In this document: positions 18,332 through 45,989 of the stretch, in pieces
Layout of the letters: the number at the start of each line of letters is the position of its first letter
How positions within the stretch are numbered: the stretch's first letter is position 1
From: Spirochaetia bacterium
Lineage (GTDB): Bacteria; Spirochaetota; UBA4802; UBA5550
Length of the DNA stretch: 45,989 nt
Direction: 5' to 3'
Assembly (NCBI GenBank): GCA_009885955.1
Contig: VFJS01000012.1
Location: 1-45,989 of the forward strand
Position numbers and translations under genes: made by a program
Notes under the pieces: generated by a model
Databases searched by the model: none
Told to the model about the DNA's origin: nothing
Seen by the model: only the letters and a program-made list of their open reading frames with translations

Positions 18332-18612
18332 TGCAGCATGAACTTCCTTTTAATATGACCCTGGGAACATCACTTCATTGGTGTAATTATCTTTACAGGT
18401 ATTTTGAGGAATGTCTCGGAGGGTATGTTTTTTCAATTGGTGAAAAGCGAGATTGTTTTGAATGCGCTTCGGATGGAGGATGTATTGAAATGGCGGTTAA
18501 TTTTGGATTTATGAATCTTTTAGATGTTTATCATTTAATTCAGAGGCCTGAAATACTGGCTGAGAAGTACAGAATTGCCCTGGATGTGGCAGGGATTAAA
18601 ATAAATCAATAA
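18328..18612 (+). CDS. Small phage protein, unknown
   Basis: 94 residues containing a CFECASDGGCIEMA segment and a helical end. Its stop shares a base with the start of the DNA methylase, so it is probably co-expressed with it. Confidence 0.55.
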   Translation: MMQHELPFNMTLGTSLHWCNYLYRYFEECLGGYVFSIGEKRDCFECASDGGCIEMAVNFGFMNLLDVYHLIQRPEILAEKYRIALDVAGIKINQ

Positions 18613-19484
18613 TGAATATCATGGTTAATTCATATTTTTCAGGCGCCGGACTTTTTGATTTGGGAATTATGAATGGTGGTCTCAATATTCAACAGAGCTT
18701 TGAAATTGATAAAGTGTGCTGTGAGACCCAGCTGAGGAATTTTACTCATGAGGTCATCGAGGGAGATATCAGAAATAAGACCGTTCTCCAGGATAAAGAG
18801 TGCCATGTGATGGTTGCGGCATTTCCATGTACAAAATATTCAACCGCAGCTGATATCCATGGGAAAAGGGTTGGTGATGAATTGTTTTTACATTTTTTCA
18901 GACATATTGCAATCCGAAGACCTGAGATATATGTCATAGAAAATGTCCCGGGAATGAAGAAATTTCCGGTTGTTATGGAGGCCATGAGCAAACTTCCAGA
19001 TTATTATATTTCAGTATTCTGCCCTGTTCGGGCTGGCATATGGCTTCCTCAACGGAGAATGAGGCTTATTTTAATAGGGTCAAGGACCTCTTTCGCGTGG
19101 AGAGAGCCTAGAGCATCAAGAAGAGTGACATTGAAAGAGATAATAGAAGATTCTCCGGAAATTGAAATAAATGAATCGGTTTATAGCAGAATCAAGGGGA
19201 AATATCGGGACATGCCTATTATCAGCGATCCTGATGCGGATGACATTGCTCCGACCTGTGTTGCACATTATTCAAAAGACCAGTCAACCAGGCTGGTGAA
19301 AGATAAAAGATTTCCTGGAGGAATGCGGCCATATACTCCCAAGGAATATGGGAGACTTCAGGGGGTTCCTGACTGGTTTGAATTTTCTGGAACAGATAAC
19401 CAGATATATCGGCAAATAGGAAATGGTGTGCCTGTTCCGATTGGCGAATGGATTGGAAGGGAAGTTACAAGATATTTTAATTGA
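18612..19484 (+). CDS. DNA (cytosine-5) methyltransferase
   Basis: The 290-residue enzyme has the ordered C5-methylase motifs: I, YFSGAGLFDLG; IV with the catalytic PC, AAFPCTKYS; VI, VIENVPG; VIII, LPQRRMRLILIG; and X, YRQIGNGVPVPIGEW. No restriction endonuclease is adjacent, so it is an orphan enzyme, likely protecting phage DNA or marking it. The specificity is not readable. An alternative start is ATG 18621. Confidence 0.92.
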   Translation: MNIMVNSYFSGAGLFDLGIMNGGLNIQQSFEIDKVCCETQLRNFTHEVIEGDIRNKTVLQDKECHVMVAAFPCTKYSTAADIHGKRVGDELFLHFFRHIAIRRPEIYVIENVPGMKKFPVVMEAMSKLPDYYISVFCPVRAGIWLPQRRMRLILIGSRTSFAWREPRASRRVTLKEIIEDSPEIEINESVYSRIKGKYRDMPIISDPDADDIAPTCVAHYSKDQSTRLVKDKRFPGGMRPYTPKEYGRLQGVPDWFEFSGTDNQIYRQIGNGVPVPIGEWIGREVTRYFN

Positions 19485-29393: not shown

Positions 29394-29749
29394 GTGAGCC
29401 GGTGTCGTTTGAAGAAATATTATTCTGGCTTACGACATATCAGGAAAATCTTCTCTTCATATCGAAGAGGCACCTTCATCTCAGCATGAAGGAGTTTTAC
29501 CAGGAGGATCTGGAAGTACTTACGATGCTGGCTAACAAATACCTTGATGAGAATAACTATCGCGAGATTCAGAACCTGCAAATGCAGGGGATAGATCCGA
29601 ATAAGATTCCGTATTATAAAAGTATTATGGACCGGACCAAAGAAAAAGTAAATAAAATAAAAAAACATGAAATCATTTCAGCAGTAGAAAAAAAGGAATA
29701 CATTAATACCTTTACCAATGTGTTAAGCGAGATAAAAAAGAATGGCTGA
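29390..29749 (+). CDS. Tail assembly chaperone T-part, expressed by -1 frameshift (GT-like)
   Basis: The downstream frame encodes a mostly helical segment, beginning SFEEILFWLTTYQENLLF after the shift. Alone it would need GTG at 29402, but no Shine-Dalgarno lies before it. Read through the slippery site, it gives a fusion of about 220 residues. Such GT proteins bind the tape measure protein in siphoviruses. The tape-measure gene starts 8 bases before this stop. Confidence 0.72.
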   Translation, partial: VSEPVSFEEILFWLTTYQENLLFISKRHLHLSMKEFYQEDLEVLTMLANKYLDENNYREIQNLQMQGIDPNKIPYYKSIMDRTKEKVNKIKKHEIISAVEKKEYINTFTNVLSEIKKNG

Positions 29750-31760
29750 TGCAAATAAAGTTGCCATAGAGCTGGCTCTTGAAAACAGGAAGTATCTCCA
29801 GGAGATAAAAAAATCCCAGGAAGCAATTTCAAAGTTTTCAGATAAAGCCTCATCCGGAATGAAGATGCTCGGGAATGTGATGTCGGCCCTTCCAATTATA
29901 GGGCTTATTGCCGCATTTCAAAAGCTCATTACAACAACCGACGCTCAGGAAAAGGCCGAGATTCAACTCAATGCGATCCTGAAAAGCACCAAATTTGCAG
30001 CCGGCATGACAGCGGATGAGTTAATCAACCTTTCAAAGAACCTTGCAAGCGTAACAACCTTCTCAGACCAGGCAATTCTGTCAGCTGAAAATATGCTTCT
30101 CACATTTACCAATATTGGTCAAAAGGTTTTCCCGCAAGCAACAGAAGCAATCCTGAATATGTCAGTTGTCATGGGAACTGACTTGAAATCCCAGGCAATA
30201 CAGCTGGGCAAAGCTCTTAACGACCCAATAGCTGGAGCATCGGCCCTGAAAGAAGTCGGGGTTGCCTTTACGAATCAGCAAATTGAACAGATTGCTGTAA
30301 TGCAGAAATCGGGCAATATTCTCGGGGCTCAAAAAATTATTTTAAATGAGCTCAATACCGAGTTTGGCGGCCTGGCTCGGGCATCGAGGGACACCGTTGG
30401 CGGATCATTTACCGTCCTTGGTAATAAATTCACCGATTTGATGGAGAAATTTGGAACACAGCTTGAACCTGCTATCAAGGGGCTGTTAATTGCCTTTTCG
30501 GATGCAACGGATTCATCCGGTGTTTTTGGCAAGGCTCTCATGGTTCTCACAGTCCCAGCCAATTTAGTTATTAAATCAATCGCCAACATCGTCATGGCTC
30601 TTCAGCGTTTATCATTAGCAGGAGATATTGGAAAGCTTGATGAGAGGATGGAGAAGCTTGGCGAGAGCATGAAAAAGGCTGCAGCTGGAGGGAATACAGA
30701 GAGGGTAGCCGCATATAAACAGAAACTAATTGATTTATGGAATGAGAAGAAAAAGCTACAACAGCAAGATTGGGATATGGGCGACCAGATAGAGAAGAAT
30801 GCAAAAAATGCATTCGGTCTCTATGACACCGAAATGAAAAAGCTTCAAGATAAAAACAAGCAATTAAAAGAGAATAAATATACCTATGTTCAGACCGCTC
30901 AAGAACAGAAAAAATATCAACAGGAACAAATTGCTTTATTGAACTTTTTGGGTGAAGAGGAAAAAGCGCAGCTTGAACAACTGCAATTAGAAAAGATGGA
31001 GATGATTAAGCTCCATAAGGAGCAGGAAGTTGCAATCACAGTAGCCGCTGAACAGAAAAAACAAGATATATACAGGCTGACAAAGGAAAAACAAATAGGT
31101 TATGGGATGACTATTCTCGGCACGATTGGCGGGTTTGTTGGTCAATTGGGGGCGTTGCAAAATCAAGCATCGCAGAACAGAATAGCAAATATTGATTTGG
31201 AGCAACAGAAAGAAGTTGAAGCAATAAATAAATCATCGATGAGTGAAGAGCAAAAACAGGCAGCGATAGCAAAAATCAATGAATCCTATGAATTAAAAAA
31301 AAGAGCAGAGCAAAGAAGGGCTGCCGTAAAAGCAAAGGATTTTGCCATTGCCGAGACATTGCTCTCCATTCCCCAGGCCGCATTCGCTGCTTTCACCGGG
31401 CTTGCAAAAATAAATATTGTTGCCGCTGGTATTGCCGCTGCCGCTGCCACGGCTTTAGGTATTGCGAAGCTCCGTATGATTCAGCAACAGCCTCTGCCGG
31501 CAATGGCAACAGGAGCTTTTAATGTCCCGCGGGATATGACAGCCTTAATCCATCAGGGGGAGACTGTAATTCCGAAAACCATGACTGAAAGCATACAGAG
31601 AGGGGATGTATCATTAGGAAGCGGATCCGGCGGAGATACTTTTATTTTTAATGGGGCAATACTCGATGAAGGTAAACTTCTCAGTATAATTGATAGCCAG
31701 AGGCAGAAGAAAGCCGCCAGGATGGGAACGAGAGATTATAGACCTGCGAGCGTTTATTAA
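29742..31760 (+). CDS. Tape measure protein
   Basis: The 672-residue protein sets tail length; at about 1.5 angstrom per residue a tail near 100 nm would follow. The N-terminal part (LENRKYLQEIKKSQEAISKF) is typical of lambda H-like proteins, with ILNELNTEFGGLARASRDTVGG near residue 210. A hydrophobic segment, VAAGIAAAAATALGIAKL, lies near 550-580. The final part, IFNGAILDEGKLLSII, is the standard tape-measure C-terminus. It overlaps the T-part by 8 bases. Confidence 0.92.
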   Translation: MADANKVAIELALENRKYLQEIKKSQEAISKFSDKASSGMKMLGNVMSALPIIGLIAAFQKLITTTDAQEKAEIQLNAILKSTKFAAGMTADELINLSKNLASVTTFSDQAILSAENMLLTFTNIGQKVFPQATEAILNMSVVMGTDLKSQAIQLGKALNDPIAGASALKEVGVAFTNQQIEQIAVMQKSGNILGAQKIILNELNTEFGGLARASRDTVGGSFTVLGNKFTDLMEKFGTQLEPAIKGLLIAFSDATDSSGVFGKALMVLTVPANLVIKSIANIVMALQRLSLAGDIGKLDERMEKLGESMKKAAAGGNTERVAAYKQKLIDLWNEKKKLQQQDWDMGDQIEKNAKNAFGLYDTEMKKLQDKNKQLKENKYTYVQTAQEQKKYQQEQIALLNFLGEEEKAQLEQLQLEKMEMIKLHKEQEVAITVAAEQKKQDIYRLTKEKQIGYGMTILGTIGGFVGQLGALQNQASQNRIANIDLEQQKEVEAINKSSMSEEQKQAAIAKINESYELKKRAEQRRAAVKAKDFAIAETLLSIPQAAFAAFTGLAKINIVAAGIAAAAATALGIAKLRMIQQQPLPAMATGAFNVPRDMTALIHQGETVIPKTMTESIQRGDVSLGSGSGGDTFIFNGAILDEGKLLSIIDSQRQKKAARMGTRDYRPASVY

Positions 31761-31761
31761 A

Positions 31762-34700
31762 ATGACACTACAGACTTATCATAACGACTCATCGTTAAAA
31801 ATCGAATATAATCCTCAAAACCATAAAGAGTTATTCACATTAAAAAATGTTGGCGCAGTTCCTGCTATTGAAATTGAAGAGGCAATAACCTATTCAGATT
31901 CTGATTCAATTTTCTTTTCTAAATCAGGAAATGATTCTACAGGTGCAGGAACCCAAGCTTCTCCTTACTTGACAATGCTAAAAGCAATCAACTCTTGTTC
32001 AGCATTAAAATCTCAAATAGTTTGTTTGGATTCAGGAATTTACAGTGAGGATTTTTCCACAGCATCAAATTTATATTTTACTGGTGTTAACTGTGCAACT
32101 GGTCAAACGCCAACATATCAAGCAAGGGGAGTTGCATCTCATTCTAATAGTGACACTATTTATGTTAAAAAAACAGGGAGTGACTCAAACACAGGAACCC
32201 AAGCAAGTCCCTTGCTTACAATTGCACACGCAATTACGCATTGTGATGGAAGCCATCAAAAGATTGGCATTCTTGATTCAGAAACGTACAATGAATATCC
32301 TTTTGAATTTTCTGGAAATTTCAAACAGATTTTTGCTACAGAAGGACAAGCCCCTACTGTTAGAATTGATAGAGAGGGACTAAATACATTAACGAGCTTT
32401 GATGTTATGTTTCCTCCTTCACTGACTAATAATCTTATTAGCAATCGTTCCATATCTCTTGCCAATGGGAATATAGCAGTCACCTACCAAGATCTTCTTA
32501 CAAGCAGTCACACATATTTACAAATAATGAATGATGTTGGAGTTGCCGTAACATCTCAGATTGATCTTGGTGATATAGCAGGAGCGGGAAATCTTGGTAC
32601 TTCAGGGCAGATGACCATTCTTGCCAATGATAATTTTGTAGTTCTTTATACTCTATCAGGAAGATCCTATTTCAGGATATATGATTATTCAGGCAATCTT
32701 ATAAAATCAGAGACAGTGGCATCAGCTTGGTCGGCCAGTTATCCTGCCTATGACAATGCTATTATGTTGTTACAAAATGGTAATTTTATAGTTCTTTATA
32801 ATAATGATATAGGGGCAGGGAGTGGAGGATTTACAATATTTACGCCTGGAGGAGAAGTTGTCAAACGAGTTGAAGGGTACAGCACCGGTCCTCCTGAAAC
32901 AGGTTGGTTTTATTTTTCTTATAGAAGAATTGTTTGTCCTCTTGTTCTCAGCGATGGAAATGTTTATTTGTATCAGAGATGGACATTCAACGTAGGGACT
33001 GGAAATTACTCGTGCGAATTAGCGTGGATGACTCAAGATGGTGAGACGCTTACGTATGATTATCATACTGGACTTGCATACATTAACTTTGATGGAAAAA
33101 AAATTGCTATGGATGGGTATTACTTCAGCATAGATAATGGAAATGTTTACAAATCTGATAGTAATTATTCCTACACACAGTTCACCACTGTTATGACTTC
33201 TCCTGGGGCATTTCTATCTAAGTGCATCAAGCTTGGTCAATTCCTTGTTTTTGCTGGAATAGACTCTGCTGTTTTAAAGTTTGCTGTCTACACCATAACA
33301 GGGGTTCAAGTAAAAGCTGTGACTGCTATGTATGTTTATGATTGGTGGACTCACGGTGCTCCAGCAAATTTCCTCCTACAAGCTATACGCAATAATTCAG
33401 AATTCATAATGGGATCAGATAACTTTGATGGCTGGAATGGTGCTACGGTCAGCGACTATGTTCTTGGAACAAATCCATTAGAAATTCAAGTACCAAGTCA
33501 CGGGATGTCAACAGGAACAAGATTTCAGATTATTTGCACTGGCGGTGGTTCTAACAATCTCCCAGGGGAATACTCTGGAGGTCTTGTGAGATCACACGAT
33601 TACTATGCAGTATTCAAAGATGCTAATACTGTATGGTTGGCAACAAGCTATGCCAATGCCATGGCAAATACAAGAATCATATATAATGGATATGATGGTC
33701 ATCAAGGATCACAGTATGTAAGATGGTGGTTGGATTTGGGCTACACAAAATATTTTAAAGTTTCAGACTTTGCCACAACCGGAATAAAAGTCTCAACAGC
33801 ATCTATCCTTGATGGGATTACTATTGATTATGATAACCAGGAAGGAATTGTAAAAGGGATCCATCTTGCATCCGCAGGATTGACTATGCGGAATTGTATT
33901 CTTAAAAATCTCGTGGCGCCGACTCAAAATTCAAATGGAACAGCAGAATTACAAAAAGCATATTCAATTTTTGGGAGTTACTCAGTTGATATTGATAACT
34001 GCATTTTCCAAGATAATCACTATGGTGTATATGTCACATCAAATGCTGCTGATATCCAGAATTCAGCTTTTTACAGAATACTTTCAGGTTATGGATTATA
34101 TATAACGGGAAATGGAACAGGTATTGTTTGTGAACACAACACCTTCTTTTCAAATTATGGCGGGATCAGGCTTGTTTCAAATGATGGAACTGAAATAATT
34201 AAGAACTGCATTTTTCACGATAACAATATTTATGAAATTTATAGCAATGCTTCAATAATTATTGCATACTGCATCAACACCGGGACCAATTATAATGTGA
34301 CATTAGGAACAGCGACAATGTCAAATAATCCGTTATTCCGAAATGAAGGAGCATACGATCCTGATGATATTGATTTAAATATTAAAATGACGGATCTTAA
34401 TGACCCTGTTTCTTCCCCGGCTTACTTGTTATCTGACGACAATAGAAACGCCGGCGCTTATAATGTCGGTTTAATTGGAGATATTACTTCCTGGTCCTCA
34501 ATCACAATAGAAAAACATACAAATCTTGAATTTGAGCTTCAACCGGTGGAAAAAGTTATAAACATATCCAAAGATGGGTCAGCGGACACATCTGTCACGG
34601 GTTGGAGCCAATCATTTACTCTTGAATCAACAGGTATGAAAAATGAAGACCTCGAAAACATCATAGCAATGTTGATATGCAATAGCAGCGAAGTCAGAAT

Positions 34701-34845
34701 ATATTTTGAACCTGTTACCAATCCAAATGATTATACGCTTTATAAAATCAATTACAATAAATTAAAAATGTCACCCAACTTTTACAAGTTATCAAGAACC
34801 GGTGTTCAAGGTGTATCTGTTAGCTTTATCAGAGGTTATGAATAG
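31762..34845 (+). CDS. Tail protein with duplicated and parallel beta-helix repeats
   Basis: The 1027-residue protein follows the tape measure. Its flanks look like a tail component (an N-terminal IEYNPQNHKELFTLKN and a C-terminal SFTLESTGMKNEDLENII and GVSVSFIRGYE). Between them lie two copies of the FSKSGNDSTG/VKKTGSDSNTG...ASPxLT module, seen at the start of right-handed beta helices, then a blade-like region (NFVVLYTLSGRSYFRI, NFIVLYNNDIG), and a classic beta helix around residues 720-870 (NCIFQDNHYGVYVTSN, NTFFSNYGGIRLVSN). This suggests a carbohydrate-binding or depolymerising tail spike. I start at ATG 31762; the open frame begins further upstream. Confidence 0.72.
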   Translation: MTLQTYHNDSSLKIEYNPQNHKELFTLKNVGAVPAIEIEEAITYSDSDSIFFSKSGNDSTGAGTQASPYLTMLKAINSCSALKSQIVCLDSGIYSEDFSTASNLYFTGVNCATGQTPTYQARGVASHSNSDTIYVKKTGSDSNTGTQASPLLTIAHAITHCDGSHQKIGILDSETYNEYPFEFSGNFKQIFATEGQAPTVRIDREGLNTLTSFDVMFPPSLTNNLISNRSISLANGNIAVTYQDLLTSSHTYLQIMNDVGVAVTSQIDLGDIAGAGNLGTSGQMTILANDNFVVLYTLSGRSYFRIYDYSGNLIKSETVASAWSASYPAYDNAIMLLQNGNFIVLYNNDIGAGSGGFTIFTPGGEVVKRVEGYSTGPPETGWFYFSYRRIVCPLVLSDGNVYLYQRWTFNVGTGNYSCELAWMTQDGETLTYDYHTGLAYINFDGKKIAMDGYYFSIDNGNVYKSDSNYSYTQFTTVMTSPGAFLSKCIKLGQFLVFAGIDSAVLKFAVYTITGVQVKAVTAMYVYDWWTHGAPANFLLQAIRNNSEFIMGSDNFDGWNGATVSDYVLGTNPLEIQVPSHGMSTGTRFQIICTGGGSNNLPGEYSGGLVRSHDYYAVFKDANTVWLATSYANAMANTRIIYNGYDGHQGSQYVRWWLDLGYTKYFKVSDFATTGIKVSTASILDGITIDYDNQEGIVKGIHLASAGLTMRNCILKNLVAPTQNSNGTAELQKAYSIFGSYSVDIDNCIFQDNHYGVYVTSNAADIQNSAFYRILSGYGLYITGNGTGIVCEHNTFFSNYGGIRLVSNDGTEIIKNCIFHDNNIYEIYSNASIIIAYCINTGTNYNVTLGTATMSNNPLFRNEGAYDPDDIDLNIKMTDLNDPVSSPAYLLSDDNRNAGAYNVGLIGDITSWSSITIEKHTNLEFELQPVEKVINISKDGSADTSVTGWSQSFTLESTGMKNEDLENIIAMLICNSSEVRIYFEPVTNPNDYTLYKINYNKLKMSPNFYKLSRTGVQGVSVSFIRGYE

Positions 34846-36677
34846 TGTATATTTACACCATAAATAATCAAGTAATACCTGATGCAGATATTTTATCTGA
34901 AGTTAAAATGACAGAGAAGATGACTGAAGACCAGAATCTTATTGCATCAGAATTAAATATTGAATTAAATAATATTGATAGAACAAAGTATGATGACCGA
35001 GTTGAAGGTTCATTGTTTTATGGAACAGATTTTTATAATATGCCGGTGTCTATTTATGATAATGTTATTAACATTTATATCTGGAAGGGATTGATTAAAA
35101 ACCTGACTGTTGCTAATAATAAAATTATTGTTAATACTTTAAATTACGTCCAGCAAATGGCTGAACGTACCTGTGTTATTAGTTCATCAACAGACAAAAC
35201 TCCTGCTGAAATAATTTTTACAATTCTGACAACAGTTGCTGGTATTTCTGCTGATGATATAAACTACAAGGGATTTCAGGAAGCCATCAATCTCCAAACA
35301 GCTAATCAGCTTTATGTCAATTGTAATTTTACCATTACTGATAATCAAACCTCTATGGCAGTCATATCGGAATTATCAAGGATATCAAACTGCAATTTGT
35401 ACATTGTTGACAATAGAATTTTTATGCACCCATGGACAGCCTGGAATGGCGAATCGGGATTAAGAATAAAATCAAGTTATGTTTTAGAAGGAAGCTATTC
35501 TCACACATTCAGTGAAGAGGATAAAATTTATAATCATTACAACATAGCTTATGATAACAGTTCAATTGTTGCCTATGCAACCGGTTCTGATACTGAATCA
35601 ATATCAAGTTATGGTCAGAGAGATTTCATTATCCCAAACAAAGAGGGTGGAGTAAGTAGCACAGCATCTTCAGCTTTTAAAATACTTATTAGAAATGCAA
35701 CAGGTGCTGCTTGGGTTGGAACACAAACATTAAGCAGATATAAATTCCGTACAAAAGTGTTCAATTTTAAAATTAAACACTCTCTGGAATTGCTTAGACT
35801 TAATGACATTATTTTATTAGATTTTGATTCATATTATGGTGAGCCTGCACTTATAACAGAAAGGATTGTTGACCGAGAGAACAGAACAATTGAATTCAAA
35901 GGTTATTTCCTTAACACTCCTCACGAATATTATGAAAGGGATAAAACACCACCTGCAAAACCTGAACTTATATCTGCATTAACAGAAGCTGATGGAACTG
36001 TCTATCTGAGATGGTCTGCAAATACTGAAACTGATTTCTTAGGGAATAAATTATATTTTACAACTACAAGAGGTGAATGGGAATCAGAATATTGCAATCA
36101 AGGTAAGTCTCCGATTGATGTCAAAGGATCTGACCTTTCATATGATGGTTATCGTTATTATATCATTGGGAATTTAAATCTTGATACGGAATATTATTTT
36201 AAAATGACTGCGTATGATACCAACTTAAATGAGTCAGATTTTAGTAACATTTTATCCTGCACGCCAACACTGGGAACTGGAATTCTTTACTGCTTAACAG
36301 GAGACCCGATCACCTCTGGATTGGAACTTGACATGATAAACTCAATGGGCGGTGTTCTAACCAATGATGATATGTTAGAAATGTATGGTGACCACAATTA
36401 TGACTTAAATAATTATGCTTACACAGCCTGTTACGAATCTCCAGAGTTATCAGACCGTCACGGATTCAATTCAATAACAATCAAAGGGTACGGCGATCCA
36501 AATGATATTAAATTCACCTATAAGGATATAGAAACAGGATTATGGTCAACACCTGTTGATGCAGTAGGAAATAAAACAATTTCACTAAATGGTGTAAAGA
36601 AAATGATATATCGAATTTTATTCTGCTCTGAAAATTGGACAGACACAGACAGAGCTTATGTAATGGATTTGAGGTAA
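34845..36677 (+). CDS. Tail hub/tip protein (gpJ-like) with an FN3 domain
   Basis: The 610-residue protein, starting GTG on the overlap with the previous stop, has an N-terminal hub-like region (VKMTEKMTEDQNLIASELNI, YVQQMAERTCVIS), a C-terminal part of the first half, FNFKIKHSLELLRLNDIILL, and a fibronectin type III domain at about 370-475 (PPAKPELISALTEADGTVYL; LNLDTEYYFKMTAYDTN). It is expected to sit at the tail tip and bind the host or carry the next proteins. The final region (about 480-610) is unassigned. Confidence 0.72.
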   Translation: MYIYTINNQVIPDADILSEVKMTEKMTEDQNLIASELNIELNNIDRTKYDDRVEGSLFYGTDFYNMPVSIYDNVINIYIWKGLIKNLTVANNKIIVNTLNYVQQMAERTCVISSSTDKTPAEIIFTILTTVAGISADDINYKGFQEAINLQTANQLYVNCNFTITDNQTSMAVISELSRISNCNLYIVDNRIFMHPWTAWNGESGLRIKSSYVLEGSYSHTFSEEDKIYNHYNIAYDNSSIVAYATGSDTESISSYGQRDFIIPNKEGGVSSTASSAFKILIRNATGAAWVGTQTLSRYKFRTKVFNFKIKHSLELLRLNDIILLDFDSYYGEPALITERIVDRENRTIEFKGYFLNTPHEYYERDKTPPAKPELISALTEADGTVYLRWSANTETDFLGNKLYFTTTRGEWESEYCNQGKSPIDVKGSDLSYDGYRYYIIGNLNLDTEYYFKMTAYDTNLNESDFSNILSCTPTLGTGILYCLTGDPITSGLELDMINSMGGVLTNDDMLEMYGDHNYDLNNYAYTACYESPELSDRHGFNSITIKGYGDPNDIKFTYKDIETGLWSTPVDAVGNKTISLNGVKKMIYRILFCSENWTDTDRAYVMDLR

Positions 36678-36681
36678 TGAA

Positions 36682-37542
36682 ATGTATATAAAACTTCCAA
36701 CAAGAACAGCAAGTGACCTTGATTCTTCAGCAGATATGAATCAGGTTGAATTAAACATTGAAGCACTGAAAGGTGGCGACCCTGCAGTTCCTCCAACACA
36801 AGACCTTGAGACACACATTGCTGATACAACAACAAAGCATGTAACTAATGGTAACAGCCACGACCATAATGGCGGTGATGGTGGACAGGTTGACCATACA
36901 GGGCTATCAAATAAGGGAAGCAATACACATGCTCAGGTTGACACTCACATTGGTGATGATGACAATGTTCATGGGGTGACAGGGAAGGTGGTTGGAACAA
37001 CCGACACACAGGATATTTCAGGCAAAAGAATATCTGGGTTTGGGTCAACTAAACTGGCAAGCTCCTTGTATGGAGGCAACACTGATCCAGATGCGATAAC
37101 TCGGTTAAATTGGGATGGATACTTCTATGCAACCAGGGTTTATAATGCATACTGGAATGACATTGCAGAGATGGTTGAGAGTGATGGTTCCGCAAAACCA
37201 GGTGATTTGCTTACAGTTGATACAGAGCATCCAACTTTCCGTGTTAAAAAATATGAAGGAAAACTTCCTCATACATTTTTAGGAATTGCTTCTGAAAATC
37301 CTGGCTTTGTTGTTGGTGCTAATGAAGATTTTAAATATCCATTGTTCCTTACGCTCAAAGGACAAGTTTATATTAATACAGAATATACAGATGATTATAG
37401 ATATAAAGTTGGTCAGGTTTTATACATTACTCAATACGGAATAAAGACTTTTGGTGATGCGAGAAAATTAAATTTTTTTGATGTGGCTAAATTAGGAACG
37501 GTTGTTGAGAACGATGGAAAGAGAGTTAAGGTATTTGTTTAA
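36682..37542 (+). CDS. Tail fibre protein with His-rich repeats and a C-terminal G2-like domain
   Basis: The 286-residue protein has an N-terminal helical region and a repeat of His/Asp motifs: GNSHDHNGGDGGQVDHTG and NTHAQVDTHIGDDDNVHGV, a pattern found in many trimeric phage fibres and able to bind metal. The C-terminal 130 residues begin YWNDIAEMVESDGSAKPGD and end KLGTVVENDGKRVKVFV, resembling the peptidase G2 chaperone domain. GAGGT lies six bases before the ATG. The stop shares a base with the radical SAM start. Confidence 0.7.
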   Translation: MYIKLPTRTASDLDSSADMNQVELNIEALKGGDPAVPPTQDLETHIADTTTKHVTNGNSHDHNGGDGGQVDHTGLSNKGSNTHAQVDTHIGDDDNVHGVTGKVVGTTDTQDISGKRISGFGSTKLASSLYGGNTDPDAITRLNWDGYFYATRVYNAYWNDIAEMVESDGSAKPGDLLTVDTEHPTFRVKKYEGKLPHTFLGIASENPGFVVGANEDFKYPLFLTLKGQVYINTEYTDDYRYKVGQVLYITQYGIKTFGDARKLNFFDVAKLGTVVENDGKRVKVFV

Positions 37543-39065
37543 TGAAACCATCTGAATTTAAACAAGGTAAATCCCCTAAAGAACTCGGTAAAAAAATTAC
37601 AGCCATATCCATTGACTTGACTGAGGACTGCTCTCTTAGATGCACATATTGTTTTTGTGACCAGTCCCCATCAGGACAAGTTTCAAAAAGTAAAAATGTT
37701 TTATCACTTCAAGCTGGAAAAGAGATTATTGATTGGGCATTGTCAGATGATGTAAGTGATAAGGAACTTCATATTGAATGGTGGGGTGGAGAACCCTTTA
37801 TCCAGTTTGAACTAATGAAAGAACTTACAATATATGCAAAACAGAAAGCAAATGAACTTGGAAAGCAAATCAGCTTTGGAGGGACAACTAATATTGTTTC
37901 TCTGACGGAAGAAAAAGTCCAATGGATTATTGATGAAACAAAAGGTTTCCTTTTATCTTGTGATGGTAGAGGTGAACGGAATAAAGAAAGGATTTTCCCT
38001 GATGGTTCTAATTCTTGGTCAGCGCTTGAAATGAAATTAGAAATGGTTAAAGAAGTTTACTCTAAAAATAACAAACCCTTACCGTCAATTAGAATGACAG
38101 CATCATCTTCAACTGTTGAAGGTATGGCAGATGATATGATTTACTTTCACGAACAAGGATGGAGTCATGTTTTCAGTTCGGAAAATTATGATTGTACCTG
38201 GACACCAGAACAATTTAAACAATTTGAGGTTGAATGTAGAAAACTATCAGATTATAGATTTGATTGTTTAAAAGATAATAAAAAATTTATGGCCTCAAAG
38301 TTCTTTGATGATATGGCCATGCACGTCATCGAACCTCGTAAAATGAAAGAAGATGAACCGGCTTGGTCTTGTGGGGCAGGTAAAGGCTATATGGGTATTT
38401 CTGTTGAAGGTGCTATATATGCCTGTCATAGAAACAACAAACACAACACTTTGGACAAGGAATGGCACGATAAGGATAGATGTCTTGGCAGTATATACGA
38501 AGGTATTACTAATTTAGAATTGTATGATAAAATAAATAAAACTCTTATTCCTGATAAATGCAAAGGATGTCCGGTTGAAACTTCATGTTTGGGTGGATGT
38601 ATAGCAGTCTGTAAAGATTTAACTAATGATGAATTTGGCTCAGTAGATAATATCTGCAAAACCAAAATGATTATGTATAATGTTGTTTTGAATGAAATAA
38701 ATCAAGTGATGAAATTAGGAAAGTTTCAGGATTATCTAAAATTAGTAAACACAAGAAAGAATAGAAATAAAGATCATAAACCTGTAAGCTGTGCTTGCCA
38801 TTCAACAACCTACACCAACTCAGTTAAGATATTTGCGGAAGTAGGCAAGGACAAAGATGATGTCACTAACCTATTAATATATGTTTCAAAAATAATTGAT
38901 CAGGAATTAGCTAAAAAAATTAAGAATAATATTCCACATTGCTTGTGCAATACTCAGCAATATAATGATAATAATCTTCACAAACAATTCAATATCTCAG
39001 AAGTACAGAAAAAAGATATAATAAATACTTTTGCCTCAATGTTCGGAGGTGAAACAAATGGCTAA
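37542..39065 (+). CDS. Radical SAM/SPASM peptide-modifying enzyme
   Basis: The 507-residue enzyme has the CxxxCxxC cluster motif at Cys30, Cys34 and Cys37 (TEDCSLRCTYCFCD), plus Cys39, and the SAM-binding GGEPF near residue 85. The C-terminal SPASM region has SCGAGKGYMGISVEGAIYAC, then CKGCPVETSCLGGC and further cysteines, enough for two auxiliary [4Fe-4S] clusters. Such enzymes install thioether or other crosslinks on peptides. An extra C-terminal stretch has CACH and HCLC. Its start overlaps the fibre stop and its stop overlaps the Cys-rich gene by 8 bases, so the latter is the probable substrate. Expect activity only without oxygen. Confidence 0.9.
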   Translation: MKPSEFKQGKSPKELGKKITAISIDLTEDCSLRCTYCFCDQSPSGQVSKSKNVLSLQAGKEIIDWALSDDVSDKELHIEWWGGEPFIQFELMKELTIYAKQKANELGKQISFGGTTNIVSLTEEKVQWIIDETKGFLLSCDGRGERNKERIFPDGSNSWSALEMKLEMVKEVYSKNNKPLPSIRMTASSSTVEGMADDMIYFHEQGWSHVFSSENYDCTWTPEQFKQFEVECRKLSDYRFDCLKDNKKFMASKFFDDMAMHVIEPRKMKEDEPAWSCGAGKGYMGISVEGAIYACHRNNKHNTLDKEWHDKDRCLGSIYEGITNLELYDKINKTLIPDKCKGCPVETSCLGGCIAVCKDLTNDEFGSVDNICKTKMIMYNVVLNEINQVMKLGKFQDYLKLVNTRKNRNKDHKPVSCACHSTTYTNSVKIFAEVGKDKDDVTNLLIYVSKIIDQELAKKIKNNIPHCLCNTQQYNDNNLHKQFNISEVQKKDIINTFASMFGGETNG

Positions 39066-39936
39066 TTGTAATGCAAATACAGATATAAATACTTATGCAG
39101 TTGGTAAAATTGAAGCTGAGTTTATTCAAGGATGTCTTAATAGATTACGAGCATATAACACCAAATATTCAGTTGCTGGAATTCCTACTCCAAAAAAAAT
39201 ATCTGATGCATATCCTAACGACTTAACTGTAAGGCTTGTTCAAACAAGAACAAATGATATAGAGGGGACAGTTACTCTTCAAGCTTTAAAGACTCTCGTT
39301 GATGATATTAAACATACCCTTTTAGATTATTCCGAATCAGCAACTTATGGTTCTCATCCTACAATTGATCATCCAACAGATACTAATTTTCCTGATGATG
39401 TAAATGATAGGGATTATTTAAAGAATGGAATTACAACTATAGAGGCAGGTTGTTGGGCTTGTTATACAGGTCATGGAACAGATACTTGTTCATCCTGTCA
39501 TCACGAAAGTCACACCTGTTCTTGTAATTCCGCTTGTTATGGGCACTCCTGCACAGCCTGTCACGGGACAACTGATAGTTGCACGTGTAATATTCCTTGC
39601 AATATACATACACCAGCAGGATGCACCATCTGTGATTCTGCTTGCAATGGATATTGTTGGCACTGTTCTTGTTATGATGATTGGTGTGCTGCATGTTATA
39701 GTACTGATGATTATGCTGAGTATCTTTGCTCTGGATGTGATGTAGCTTGTTATACAGAAGTGTCGGACTCTTGCACCTCATGTCATCATTCCACAAATGC
39801 TTGCACTTGTGATTCTGCTTGTTATGTTCACGGATGCACAGCTTGTAATGCATCAGCAGATACTTGCTCGTGTAATGCAAGTCCTTGTTATAGTCATACA
39901 GATAACTGCACTCAGTGCAATGCGACAACATATTAA
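39058..39936 (+). CDS. Cysteine-repeat protein, probable substrate of the radical SAM enzyme
   Basis: A 292-residue protein. GGAGGT at 39045-39050, seven bases before ATG 39058, fixes the start. Residues 1-131 form a normal domain with two Cys and a helical segment (LQALKTLVDDIKHTLLDY). Residues 132-292 hold 35 Cys in 161 positions (22%), no Lys, Arg, Met or Phe, and many Ser, Thr, His, Asn and Asp. The repeat is C-x2-C-x6-C-x-C-x3-C-x4, clearest in CSSCHHESHTCSCNSACYG and CTSCHHSTNACTCDSACYV. Cys132 directly follows EAG, a possible leader boundary. It lies in the tail operon, so the product may be a crosslinked tail-tip or fibre part. Metal binding is the alternative. Confidence 0.85.
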   Translation: MANCNANTDINTYAVGKIEAEFIQGCLNRLRAYNTKYSVAGIPTPKKISDAYPNDLTVRLVQTRTNDIEGTVTLQALKTLVDDIKHTLLDYSESATYGSHPTIDHPTDTNFPDDVNDRDYLKNGITTIEAGCWACYTGHGTDTCSSCHHESHTCSCNSACYGHSCTACHGTTDSCTCNIPCNIHTPAGCTICDSACNGYCWHCSCYDDWCAACYSTDDYAEYLCSGCDVACYTEVSDSCTSCHHSTNACTCDSACYVHGCTACNASADTCSCNASPCYSHTDNCTQCNATTY

Positions 39937-40649: not shown

Positions 40650-41246
40650 ATGGCAGATAAAAAATGGGACGTCGGCCAAAATGACCAGGATAACAATTTT
40701 GATTTCAATAAATTATTTTTAGCAACCTGGCAGTGCTTTTCAACCTGCTCCTGGATGCTCATGTCTTGGATATGCCCTGAAATTAAATATGATGACGATA
40801 AGGGCCTGGCTAAATATCTTGATGATGTTGAGATAAATGTCGGCTCTCCGGGGATAGGGGAGGAAATAGCCAGGAAACTCGGCATTAAAGCCGGTTCAAG
40901 CTATTACTTTGCAGTGCAGCAGGCTGGGATACAGAAATGGATGAATGACCGGGACTGCAAGGGGAAAGTAGTATTCTCTGAAAAGAAGATTAAATTTTAT
41001 GATCTCCCGGATATGCTCGATAAATCCCCGGTTATCTTAAACACATCCGGCCTGGGAGGGACCAGGGGGCACATTATCCTGGCAATCGGTTATACAGATG
41101 ACAACATTATTGTAAATGACCCCTTCGGGGATGCCAGGGACAGTTATACTGACAAGTATGGTGAAGGGTTGTTTTATGAAAAGGAATGGCTCAAAAGATA
41201 TTGCGGTGAAAATATAATTTGTTTGTACTGGGAGGGTGGGGCATGA
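40650..41246 (+). CDS. C39-like peptidase, probable endolysin
   Basis: The 198-residue protein has a papain-like C39 pattern: ATWQCFSTCSWMLMSW supplies a Gln/Cys catalytic region, and GHIILAIGYTDDNIIVNDPFGD supplies His and Asp. In phages this fold cuts peptidoglycan crosslinks or acts on surface peptides. Position between a membrane protein and a holin supports an endolysin. C39 peptidases also remove leader peptides after a double-Gly-type site in RiPP systems, an alternative worth noting because of the Cys-repeat gene nearby. Confidence 0.68.
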   Translation: MADKKWDVGQNDQDNNFDFNKLFLATWQCFSTCSWMLMSWICPEIKYDDDKGLAKYLDDVEINVGSPGIGEEIARKLGIKAGSSYYFAVQQAGIQKWMNDRDCKGKVVFSEKKIKFYDLPDMLDKSPVILNTSGLGGTRGHIILAIGYTDDNIIVNDPFGDARDSYTDKYGEGLFYEKEWLKRYCGENIICLYWEGGA

Positions 41247-44457: not shown

Positions 44458-45989
44458 CTACTCAGCTCTTCAGCTTTGAAAATCCAAATATATCTGTCTA
44501 CCGATCATGATCTGATAAATAGATTCAATAACATTTAAGCCCTGTTTTCTGACAGTCGAAATAAAACTGCGTATGCTGCAAAATTGTTCAGCCCCTATAT
44601 ATGTTCGAAATAATCCCGATATTTTTTGCTGCACCTTAATCATTCGAAGATCCCGTTCTGCAAGGTTGTTATCAAATGGAACATCAATATCATACATAAA
44701 TGCAAGAGTTTCGTTTTGATAATCCCGTAGCCGGACAAGAAGATTTTGAATTTTAGTTTTCTTCGGTCGCCCTCGTTTTTTTATTGTATCACCTTTTGAC
44801 AATGGATTTTTTCTGAACCCTTTCAGCAGAATTTCATTATATTTACTCTCATAACGTTTCATGAGCGATGGCGCAATCAATTTCCCTTTTCCCCTCGCTT
44901 TTTCAACCGACTTTTTTATATCGAGAAGGCAATCGATCATCTTCTGCGCCCAAGTCTGCCCTTTCAGCTCATACACATTGATCAATTCCCTGATATGATG
45001 CGCATTGCATAAAGCATGATTGCATGAATATTTAAAATACACCGGCCAATGATCATGTACTGCTCTCCCGGTAAAACCGGGTAATATATCAATTGCATCA
45101 ATAGCCTCTGACCCTCTCCGTTTATGCGCAAAATAGGTTGTCAGTAATGGTGTCCCGGCAGAATGTATCCAGTGTAATGAACCGCCTATATTGACTCCCG
45201 TTTCATCAAAATTAACTACACGGGAGTCCCTTATCATTTTAATAATCCATTCTTCGAATCCGCTTAGTGCTTCTCTGCATCGTATGGAAGCTGCAACAAT
45301 TGTTCCTTCGGAAAGCGGTATATTAAACAGATCAGAAAAAATTTCAGCGCTCCTTTCAAGTGGAATCAGTTGATAATTTCTGAAATAAACCGCTATTGCT
45401 CTGAGATAGTTTCCATATTGCGTTTTATGGGTTATCCCTTCAGGAAATATTCCCCTGTTCTCAACACCGCAATGGGGGCAGTCGGTGATTTCAGCCTGAT
45501 ATTCCGTTACTTCAACAACTGGTGCCGGTATCTCAAATTCCTGCCTGGATTCATATCCTTTTCTATGAGCCGATTTCATCGATTTTCCACAGCACATACA
45601 GGCCTTAACCTTTATTTTTATGACATGGTCAGGATTTCCAACCATTTTTAGTGTATTTCCCGGATGTCCATTCTGACCGCCTGATTTTTTTCCTGAACGC
45701 TTCCTCTGACTTCTTGTCCTTTTTTTCTTCTTCAATCCATCACTTGAAGGTGGTTTACTGCTGTTATGACTGTCGGTTTTCAGCCTCTTCTCAAGCTCTT
45801 CAACTCTTGCAGTCAATGTATCAATTTTCTCCAAAAGTTGAAAAATAAAATCAACAACTGCGTCTTTACCTAAATCATAAATTTTTTCAATATCTTCTCG
45901 TCTCATTTTCATGAGACATAATCTAAAACATGCCTACCCGATTAATATTCTTTTTTTATTTTTTTTAAAAAAAATAGCTGAGTAGTTAC
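44454..45989. mobile_element. IS66-family insertion sequence (single-transposase type), complete
   Basis: GTAACTACTCAGCT at 44454-44467 and AGCTGAGTAGTTAC at 45976-45989 are perfect 14-bp terminal inverted repeats. The 1536-bp element carries only the transposase, without the small TnpA/TnpB genes of larger IS66 members, as in the ISBst12 group. It has inserted in the istA fragment. The right end is the last base of the window, so the target duplication (8 bases expected; GAAAAAAT precedes the left end) cannot be checked. Confidence 0.9.
44470..45912 (-). CDS. IS66-family transposase (TnpC/ISBst12-like)
   Basis: The 480-residue enzyme has the N-terminal leucine-zipper region (ARVEELEKRLKTDSHNSSKPPSSDG), the zinc-finger CMCCGKSM and DCPHCGVEN, and the DDE catalytic residues in VVNFDETGVNI, AVHDHWPVYF and DNNLAERDLRM. 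The insertion QNLLVRLRDYQNETLAF precedes the Glu. The gene is full length and intact, so the element could still be active. Confidence 0.92.
   Translation of the reverse strand: MKMRREDIEKIYDLGKDAVVDFIFQLLEKIDTLTARVEELEKRLKTDSHNSSKPPSSDGLKKKKRTRSQRKRSGKKSGGQNGHPGNTLKMVGNPDHVIKIKVKACMCCGKSMKSAHRKGYESRQEFEIPAPVVEVTEYQAEITDCPHCGVENRGIFPEGITHKTQYGNYLRAIAVYFRNYQLIPLERSAEIFSDLFNIPLSEGTIVAASIRCREALSGFEEWIIKMIRDSRVVNFDETGVNIGGSLHWIHSAGTPLLTTYFAHKRRGSEAIDAIDILPGFTGRAVHDHWPVYFKYSCNHALCNAHHIRELINVYELKGQTWAQKMIDCLLDIKKSVEKARGKGKLIAPSLMKRYESKYNEILLKGFRKNPLSKGDTIKKRGRPKKTKIQNLLVRLRDYQNETLAFMYDIDVPFDNNLAERDLRMIKVQQKISGLFRTYIGAEQFCSIRSFISTVRKQGLNVIESIYQIMIGRQIYLDFQS

Follow-up and report, generated by a model that had tools for sequence, protein, structure and literature searches.

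A radical SAM/SPASM enzyme gene paired with a cysteine-repeat protein gene in phage tail modules suggests a tail part cross-linked after synthesis

A gene pair at the tail-lysis junction of a spirochete prophage

The window, by which we mean the whole 45,989-nucleotide stretch of Spirochaetia bacterium DNA analyzed here, carries a prophage that encodes a terminase, a portal protein, a maturation protease, a major head protein, and an integrase. Its tail region runs from the tape measure gene through the tail and hub-like genes at 31834-36677 and the gene of a tail protein of 286 aa to a gene for a radical SAM (rSAM)/SPASM enzyme and then one for a cysteine (Cys)-repeat protein, after which come small open reading frames (ORFs) and an endolysin-like gene (Table 1). 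This is the placement between tail and lysis genes that the original prediction, made from the sequence alone, had described; family searches gave the 286-aa protein no tail fiber identity. Start and stop codons overlap at both ends of the enzyme gene, making translational coupling likely: the enzyme start codon and the upstream tail gene's stop codon have one base, 37542, in common, and the enzyme stop (39063-39065) lies within the first codons of the Cys-repeat gene (ATG at 39058), an overlap of 8 nt; that the genes overlap here had also been described. Elsewhere in the window are a prophage DNA methyltransferase gene (18612-19484) and, near the right end, a transposase-like ORF (44470-45912).

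Table 1. Features of the tail region (window coordinates) and Cys-rich ORFs of two jumbo phages (coordinates in the named locus)
Feature	Position	Strand	Basis or remark
Tape measure protein	29742..31760	+	phrog_27166, 4.4e-35
Tail protein, probably fiber or spike	31834..34845	+	phrog_4577
Tail hub/central fiber-like protein	34845..36677	+	Resembles the L190 hub with fused Cys-repeat tail (pairwise E=8e-5)
286-aa tail protein directly 5' of the enzyme	36682..37542	+	Resembles a gut phage L010 tail protein encoded ahead of the Cys gene (pairwise E=3e-7)
Radical SAM/SPASM peptide-maturase-like enzyme, 507 aa	37542..39065	+	Motifs, PDB and domain-model matches
Ribosome-binding site (GGAGG) for the Cys-repeat gene, within the rSAM gene	39045..39049	+	Sequence
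Cys-repeat protein, 292 aa; proposed substrate and tail-tip component	39058..39936	+	Cys content, motifs
Cys-rich C-terminal region, four C-x-C-[N/D] motifs	39451..39933	+	CSCN, CTCN, CTCD, CSCN; shuffle P=0.0085
Endolysin-like protein (peptidase C39-like), lysis module start	40650..41246	+	Family searches
SPN3US tandem Cys-rich ORFs	L071 6142-6534 and 6545-6949		Absent from RefSeq, which lists an overlapping out-of-frame ORF
Huxley tandem Cys-rich ORFs	L072 6125-6514 and 6524-6916		Absent from RefSeq, which lists overlapping minus-strand ORFs

The complete CxxxCxxC motif and SPASM region attributed to the enzyme are both present: C30/C34/C37, GGEP at 82-85, and seven SPASM cysteines (C277, C295, C340, C343, C349, C353, and C372), the features by which we class it as a radical SAM/SPASM protein. 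These positions are invariant relative to 12 other phage enzymes, except that C34 and C37 are absent from one partial row, and the SPASM domain model TIGR04085 scores the enzyme above its cut-off of 27 (28.2 bits). The best solved relative is the SCIFF maturase CteB (PDB 5wgg; 1.6e-34), with which the rSAM and SPASM regions align. Unlike CteB, the window enzyme does not have the N-terminal domain (~90 aa) of SCIFF maturases, starting almost at the rSAM core, and it bears a C-terminal extension of ~120 aa with CAC and CLCN motifs.

The Cys-repeat protein had been described as a protein with 35 Cys in 161 residues; that count is exact for the last 161 residues, and the protein itself is longer, with 292 aa and 37 Cys. 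No other ORF in the 46-kb window reaches 10 Cys in 50 residues, and window ORFs of at least 150 aa have a median Cys fraction of 1.3%, so the Cys richness is not a matter of chance. The N-terminal ~130 aa are predicted, with low confidence, to be helical, and AlphaFold gave no usable model of the protein (pLDDT 36). Direct searches of IMG/VR, GTDB contigs, phage records, and related genomes returned no close relative of either the enzyme or the Cys-repeat protein. A search with the pattern WWGGEP likewise yielded no relative, and those gut contigs with ~25%-identical enzymes that were scanned turned out to be SCIFF or CcpM loci. For the Cys-repeat protein, 393 genomes of the phylum gave, besides the window, one weak match with an internal stop, and a codon-level pattern of its repeat gave out-of-frame or chance matches only.

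Recurrence of the pair in phage tail modules

Similar pairs are nevertheless found in many phages. The gut phage contig L010 carries a tail protein resembling the window's 286-aa protein, a Cys-repeat protein, two small genes, and an enzyme 24% identical to the window's. A DNA pattern for a Gly/Cys repeat fetched Cys-repeat genes from diverse phages, many of them with an enzyme in the same fetched stretch; some matches of the pattern were GC-rich noise, and we set aside two short membrane ORFs with GKGCSGCSG. The original prediction had asked whether homologues of the two proteins always occur as neighbors in prophages, and the enzyme side of this question was addressed by an enzyme-alignment search of IMG/VR in which Cys content was not considered. 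Among the 78 newly found loci, 73 have a same-strand Cys-repeat ORF beside the enzyme; each of the remaining five is either a short contig or a locus where the enzyme ORF is broken. Some ascertainment remains in this proportion, because Cys repeats had led to most of the loci in the seed alignment and because the 78 include duplicate loci. The density control, however, is strong: 77 Cys-repeat ORFs lie within 2.5 kb of an enzyme, in 469 kb of sequence, compared with 3 in the remaining 401 kb. Homologues of the Cys-repeat protein that stand apart from any radical SAM gene had been named as evidence that would refute the original prediction. Five Cys-repeat loci did appear in our set without an enzyme; these had been cropped, and the full records hold the enzyme in all five. 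Gene order varies, with the enzyme first in 26 of 68 dereplicated loci (repeat-found loci included), and at many loci the two genes overlap or abut, as in the window. Enzyme/Cys-repeat pairs are present in genomes of the same host phylum as well (L198-L200).

The surroundings of the pair are those of a tail module. Among 111 upstream neighbors, named PHROG matches are most often to tail fiber, tail collar, and baseplate families, and Pfam matches to phage tail-fiber and Mu gp48 families; endolysins are found among the downstream neighbors at some loci. At L186, ORFs that read from their translations as tape-measure-like, distal-tail-like, and hub-like are followed by an rSAM gene, a Cys protein gene, and a second rSAM gene. 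At two loci (L194 and L156), Cys-repeat C termini are fused to proteins with tail-fiber matches, and in L190 such a C terminus is carried by a protein resembling the window's hub, the gene for which overlaps an rSAM gene. These fusions are the most direct hint that the Cys repeats may be located in the tail, and they favor the earlier reading of the window protein as a tail part. If we define the grouping as an rSAM/SPASM gene adjoining a Cys-repeat gene within a tail module, the window pair belongs to it.

The phage Cys-repeat proteins typically have 130 to 500 residues, with a helical N- or C-terminal domain in the place of a leader peptide. Structure prediction for proteins of the family is confident for the helical domain and not for the Cys repeats, and the family model has no significant match in the PDB. 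The lack of a predicted fold for the repeats would fit a modification-dependent structure; a missing predicted fold is also usual for repetitive sequence. Three BFVD entries (A0A8S5VQ11, A0A8S5NK66, and A0A8S5VD55) match the family model, one of them automatically named a TNFR-Cys domain protein.

Two forms of the pair and their nearest relatives

In the main family, Cys residues are spaced by three or two residues (CxxxC/CxxC) on a Gly/Ser/Thr background. The window Cys region is unlike this, being Gly-poor with irregular Cys spacing. When the window enzyme was combined as a query with the second enzyme of L148, which resembles it, a scan yielded a second group of enzymes, whose partners are Gly-poor and rich in C-x-C-[N/D], with the Cys gene mostly directly 3' of the enzyme gene (a gap of 9-32 nt in most). 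The same motif is found in the C-terminal tails of three enzymes, as CLCN in the window (38790-39062), CLCN and CLCD in L182 (5941-7260), and CLCD in L186 (5962-7323), and in none of 73 first-group enzymes. A C-x-C-[N/D] motif in the enzyme tail could serve as a pseudo-substrate or an extra metal site. Several window-type loci (L182, L186, L189, and L191) have two or more rSAM genes; at L189 (1346-8895), five rSAM ORFs surround two similar Cys-repeat proteins rich in CTCN/CSCD.

How does the window pair relate to the others? The enzyme tree does not fix the place of the window enzyme (support 20-59), and the N-terminal domain of the window Cys protein does not match that of the family: a comparison with shuffled sequences led us to reject homology between the two, leaving the C-x-C-[N/D] motif as the only feature in common. 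On sequence comparison, the window pair is thus a divergent member by layout and motif, as distinct from demonstrated homology.

Among curated families, the best NCBIfam matches of the window enzyme are thioether maturases, and the enzyme falls far short of every curated maturase cut-off. The top family is that of the PapB ranthipeptide maturases (NF047865), with 174 bits for the window enzyme and 149 for the second enzyme of L148 against a cut-off of 340; where PapB-type maturases have a short precursor as partner, the window enzyme has a 292-aa protein encoded in a tail operon. The SCIFF maturases (TIGR03974) follow at 139 bits, below a cut-off of 425, and the partner is again not the SCIFF peptide. 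The CXXX-repeat peptide maturase family (TIGR04115; cut-off 350) is matched by phage group-1 enzymes, with 630 bits for L014 and 301 for L010, and its name describes a CXXX-repeat target resembling theirs. In contrast to that family, the window enzyme scores 102 bits, and the phage members lie in tail modules, with partners that have a helical domain or tail-protein fusions. L014 (a gut contig), together with L081 and L084 (Bacteroidales MAGs), encodes a related enzyme and Cys-repeat proteins with SRRxFFK leader-like N termini.

Phage families with corresponding content have been compiled without a function. Several Cys-repeat proteins, the window's not among them, match the unannotated families phrog_6085 and phrog_26958. 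The window enzyme (1e-28) and four neighboring rSAM genes in related loci match the radical SAM proteins of phrog_1802, which is filed as "other" without a role. Radical SAM genes of Campylobacter phages have been noted as a rare feature, with suggested roles in DNA methylation or in activating pyruvate formate-lyase or ribonucleotide reductase (PMC3322345). In the open-access literature, a scope that leaves bioRxiv preprints and most subscription journals outside, we found no paper in which radical SAM maturation is connected with tail proteins of phages. We found no agreed role for phage radical SAM genes, and for many of them, the adjoining Cys-repeat protein is a candidate substrate.

A candidate cross-linked tail tip and the alternatives

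That many unrelated bacterial viruses keep an enzyme and a Cys-rich protein together among their tail genes suggests that a part of the tail is cross-linked after synthesis. We posit a model in which the enzyme, translated in coupling with its neighbor, would act during tail assembly and modify the Cys-repeat region of the adjacent protein. The bonds would most likely be intramolecular thioethers joining Cys sulfur to a carbon of nearby residues, in the manner of ranthipeptides or sactipeptides, and the stapled Cys region would form a rigid, protease-resistant tail tip or adhesin. We think it probable that the pair is a phage maturase and its substrate in this sense, with cross-linking of the Cys residues of a tail-tip protein, and the simplest mechanism is for the neighboring enzyme to modify the Cys-repeat region and for the cross-linked product to be used at the tail tip. 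Cys thioethers are the products of the nearest curated families. Weighing against this reading for the window pair are the low family scores of its enzyme, the low support for that enzyme's position in the tree, the Cys protein's lack of a detectable sequence relative and its irregular Cys spacing, and the failure of family searches to give the 286-aa protein upstream a tail fiber identity.

If the tail protein is modified, is the product necessarily a thioether? SPASM enzymes catalyze several linkages, the profile scores to families of differing products are all below cut-off, and more than one rSAM gene is present at several window-type loci, all of which would fit C-C or C-O bonds, epimerization, or an Fe-S-type cofactor on a Cys ladder. 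Such chemistry is a minority prospect in our assessment, given that the two families with the best scores, PapB and SCIFF, both make Cys thioethers and that Cys dominates the substrate region. It is also conceivable that the enzyme modifies the Cys protein but that the product never enters the virion, being released at lysis or acting on the host as an antimicrobial or moron-type RiPP. The closest curated enzyme families do make short modified peptides, the gene lies at the tail-lysis junction, and the N termini of the Bacteroidales relatives resemble leaders and not the tail-module domain. Against this, fiber and baseplate genes are consistently upstream, Cys repeats are fused to fiber and hub proteins, and the proteins, typically 130 to 500 residues long, have a helical domain where a leader peptide would be; we regard a non-virion product as unlikely. 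We give slightly less credence still to the idea that the rSAM enzyme has some other target and that the Cys-repeat protein stays unmodified in the tail, rich in metal or disulfides. Cys-rich repeats could indeed bind metal or form disulfides, but the enzyme and the repeats co-occur almost without exception, their genes overlap or abut at many loci, relatives of the enzyme act on Cys-rich peptides, and the motif in the enzyme tail follows that of the partner.

Returning to the cross-linked tail tip, we also lean toward its more general form: in tailed phages of many hosts, model jumbo phages included, the tail tip may consist in part of a Cys-repeat region cross-linked by a dedicated radical SAM enzyme, a virion protein modification not previously described and present in at least two forms, one with Gly-rich CXXXC repeats and one with C-x-C-[N/D]. 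On that reading, the pair points to radical chemistry in the making of a virion component. The further expectation that infectivity would be tied to anaerobic growth is not supported, since the host genome encodes COX1, a heme-copper oxidase, and the pair is carried by Salmonella and Erwinia phages.

A dedicated cross-linked adhesin, if real, would add a new type to the structural proteins of phages, one that is testable in established laboratory phages. Related enzymes are present in Salmonella, Erwinia, and Cronobacter jumbo phages, and the pairing with Cys proteins was confirmed in SPN3US (Salmonella) and Huxley. In SPN3US, a tandem pair of Cys genes is flanked on one side by a virion structural protein gene and on the other by two rSAM genes. 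On NC_027402, the two Cys genes occupy 143828-144220 and 143413-143817 of the minus strand. The large gene preceding the Cys genes has the length given for gp168, an essential baseplate/tail-fiber candidate (PMC5694885). Because both Cys genes are absent from the RefSeq annotation, a proteome search of SPN3US against annotated proteins would miss them. In both SPN3US (L071, 8103-9017) and Huxley, a smaller second rSAM gene directly precedes that of the SPASM enzyme.
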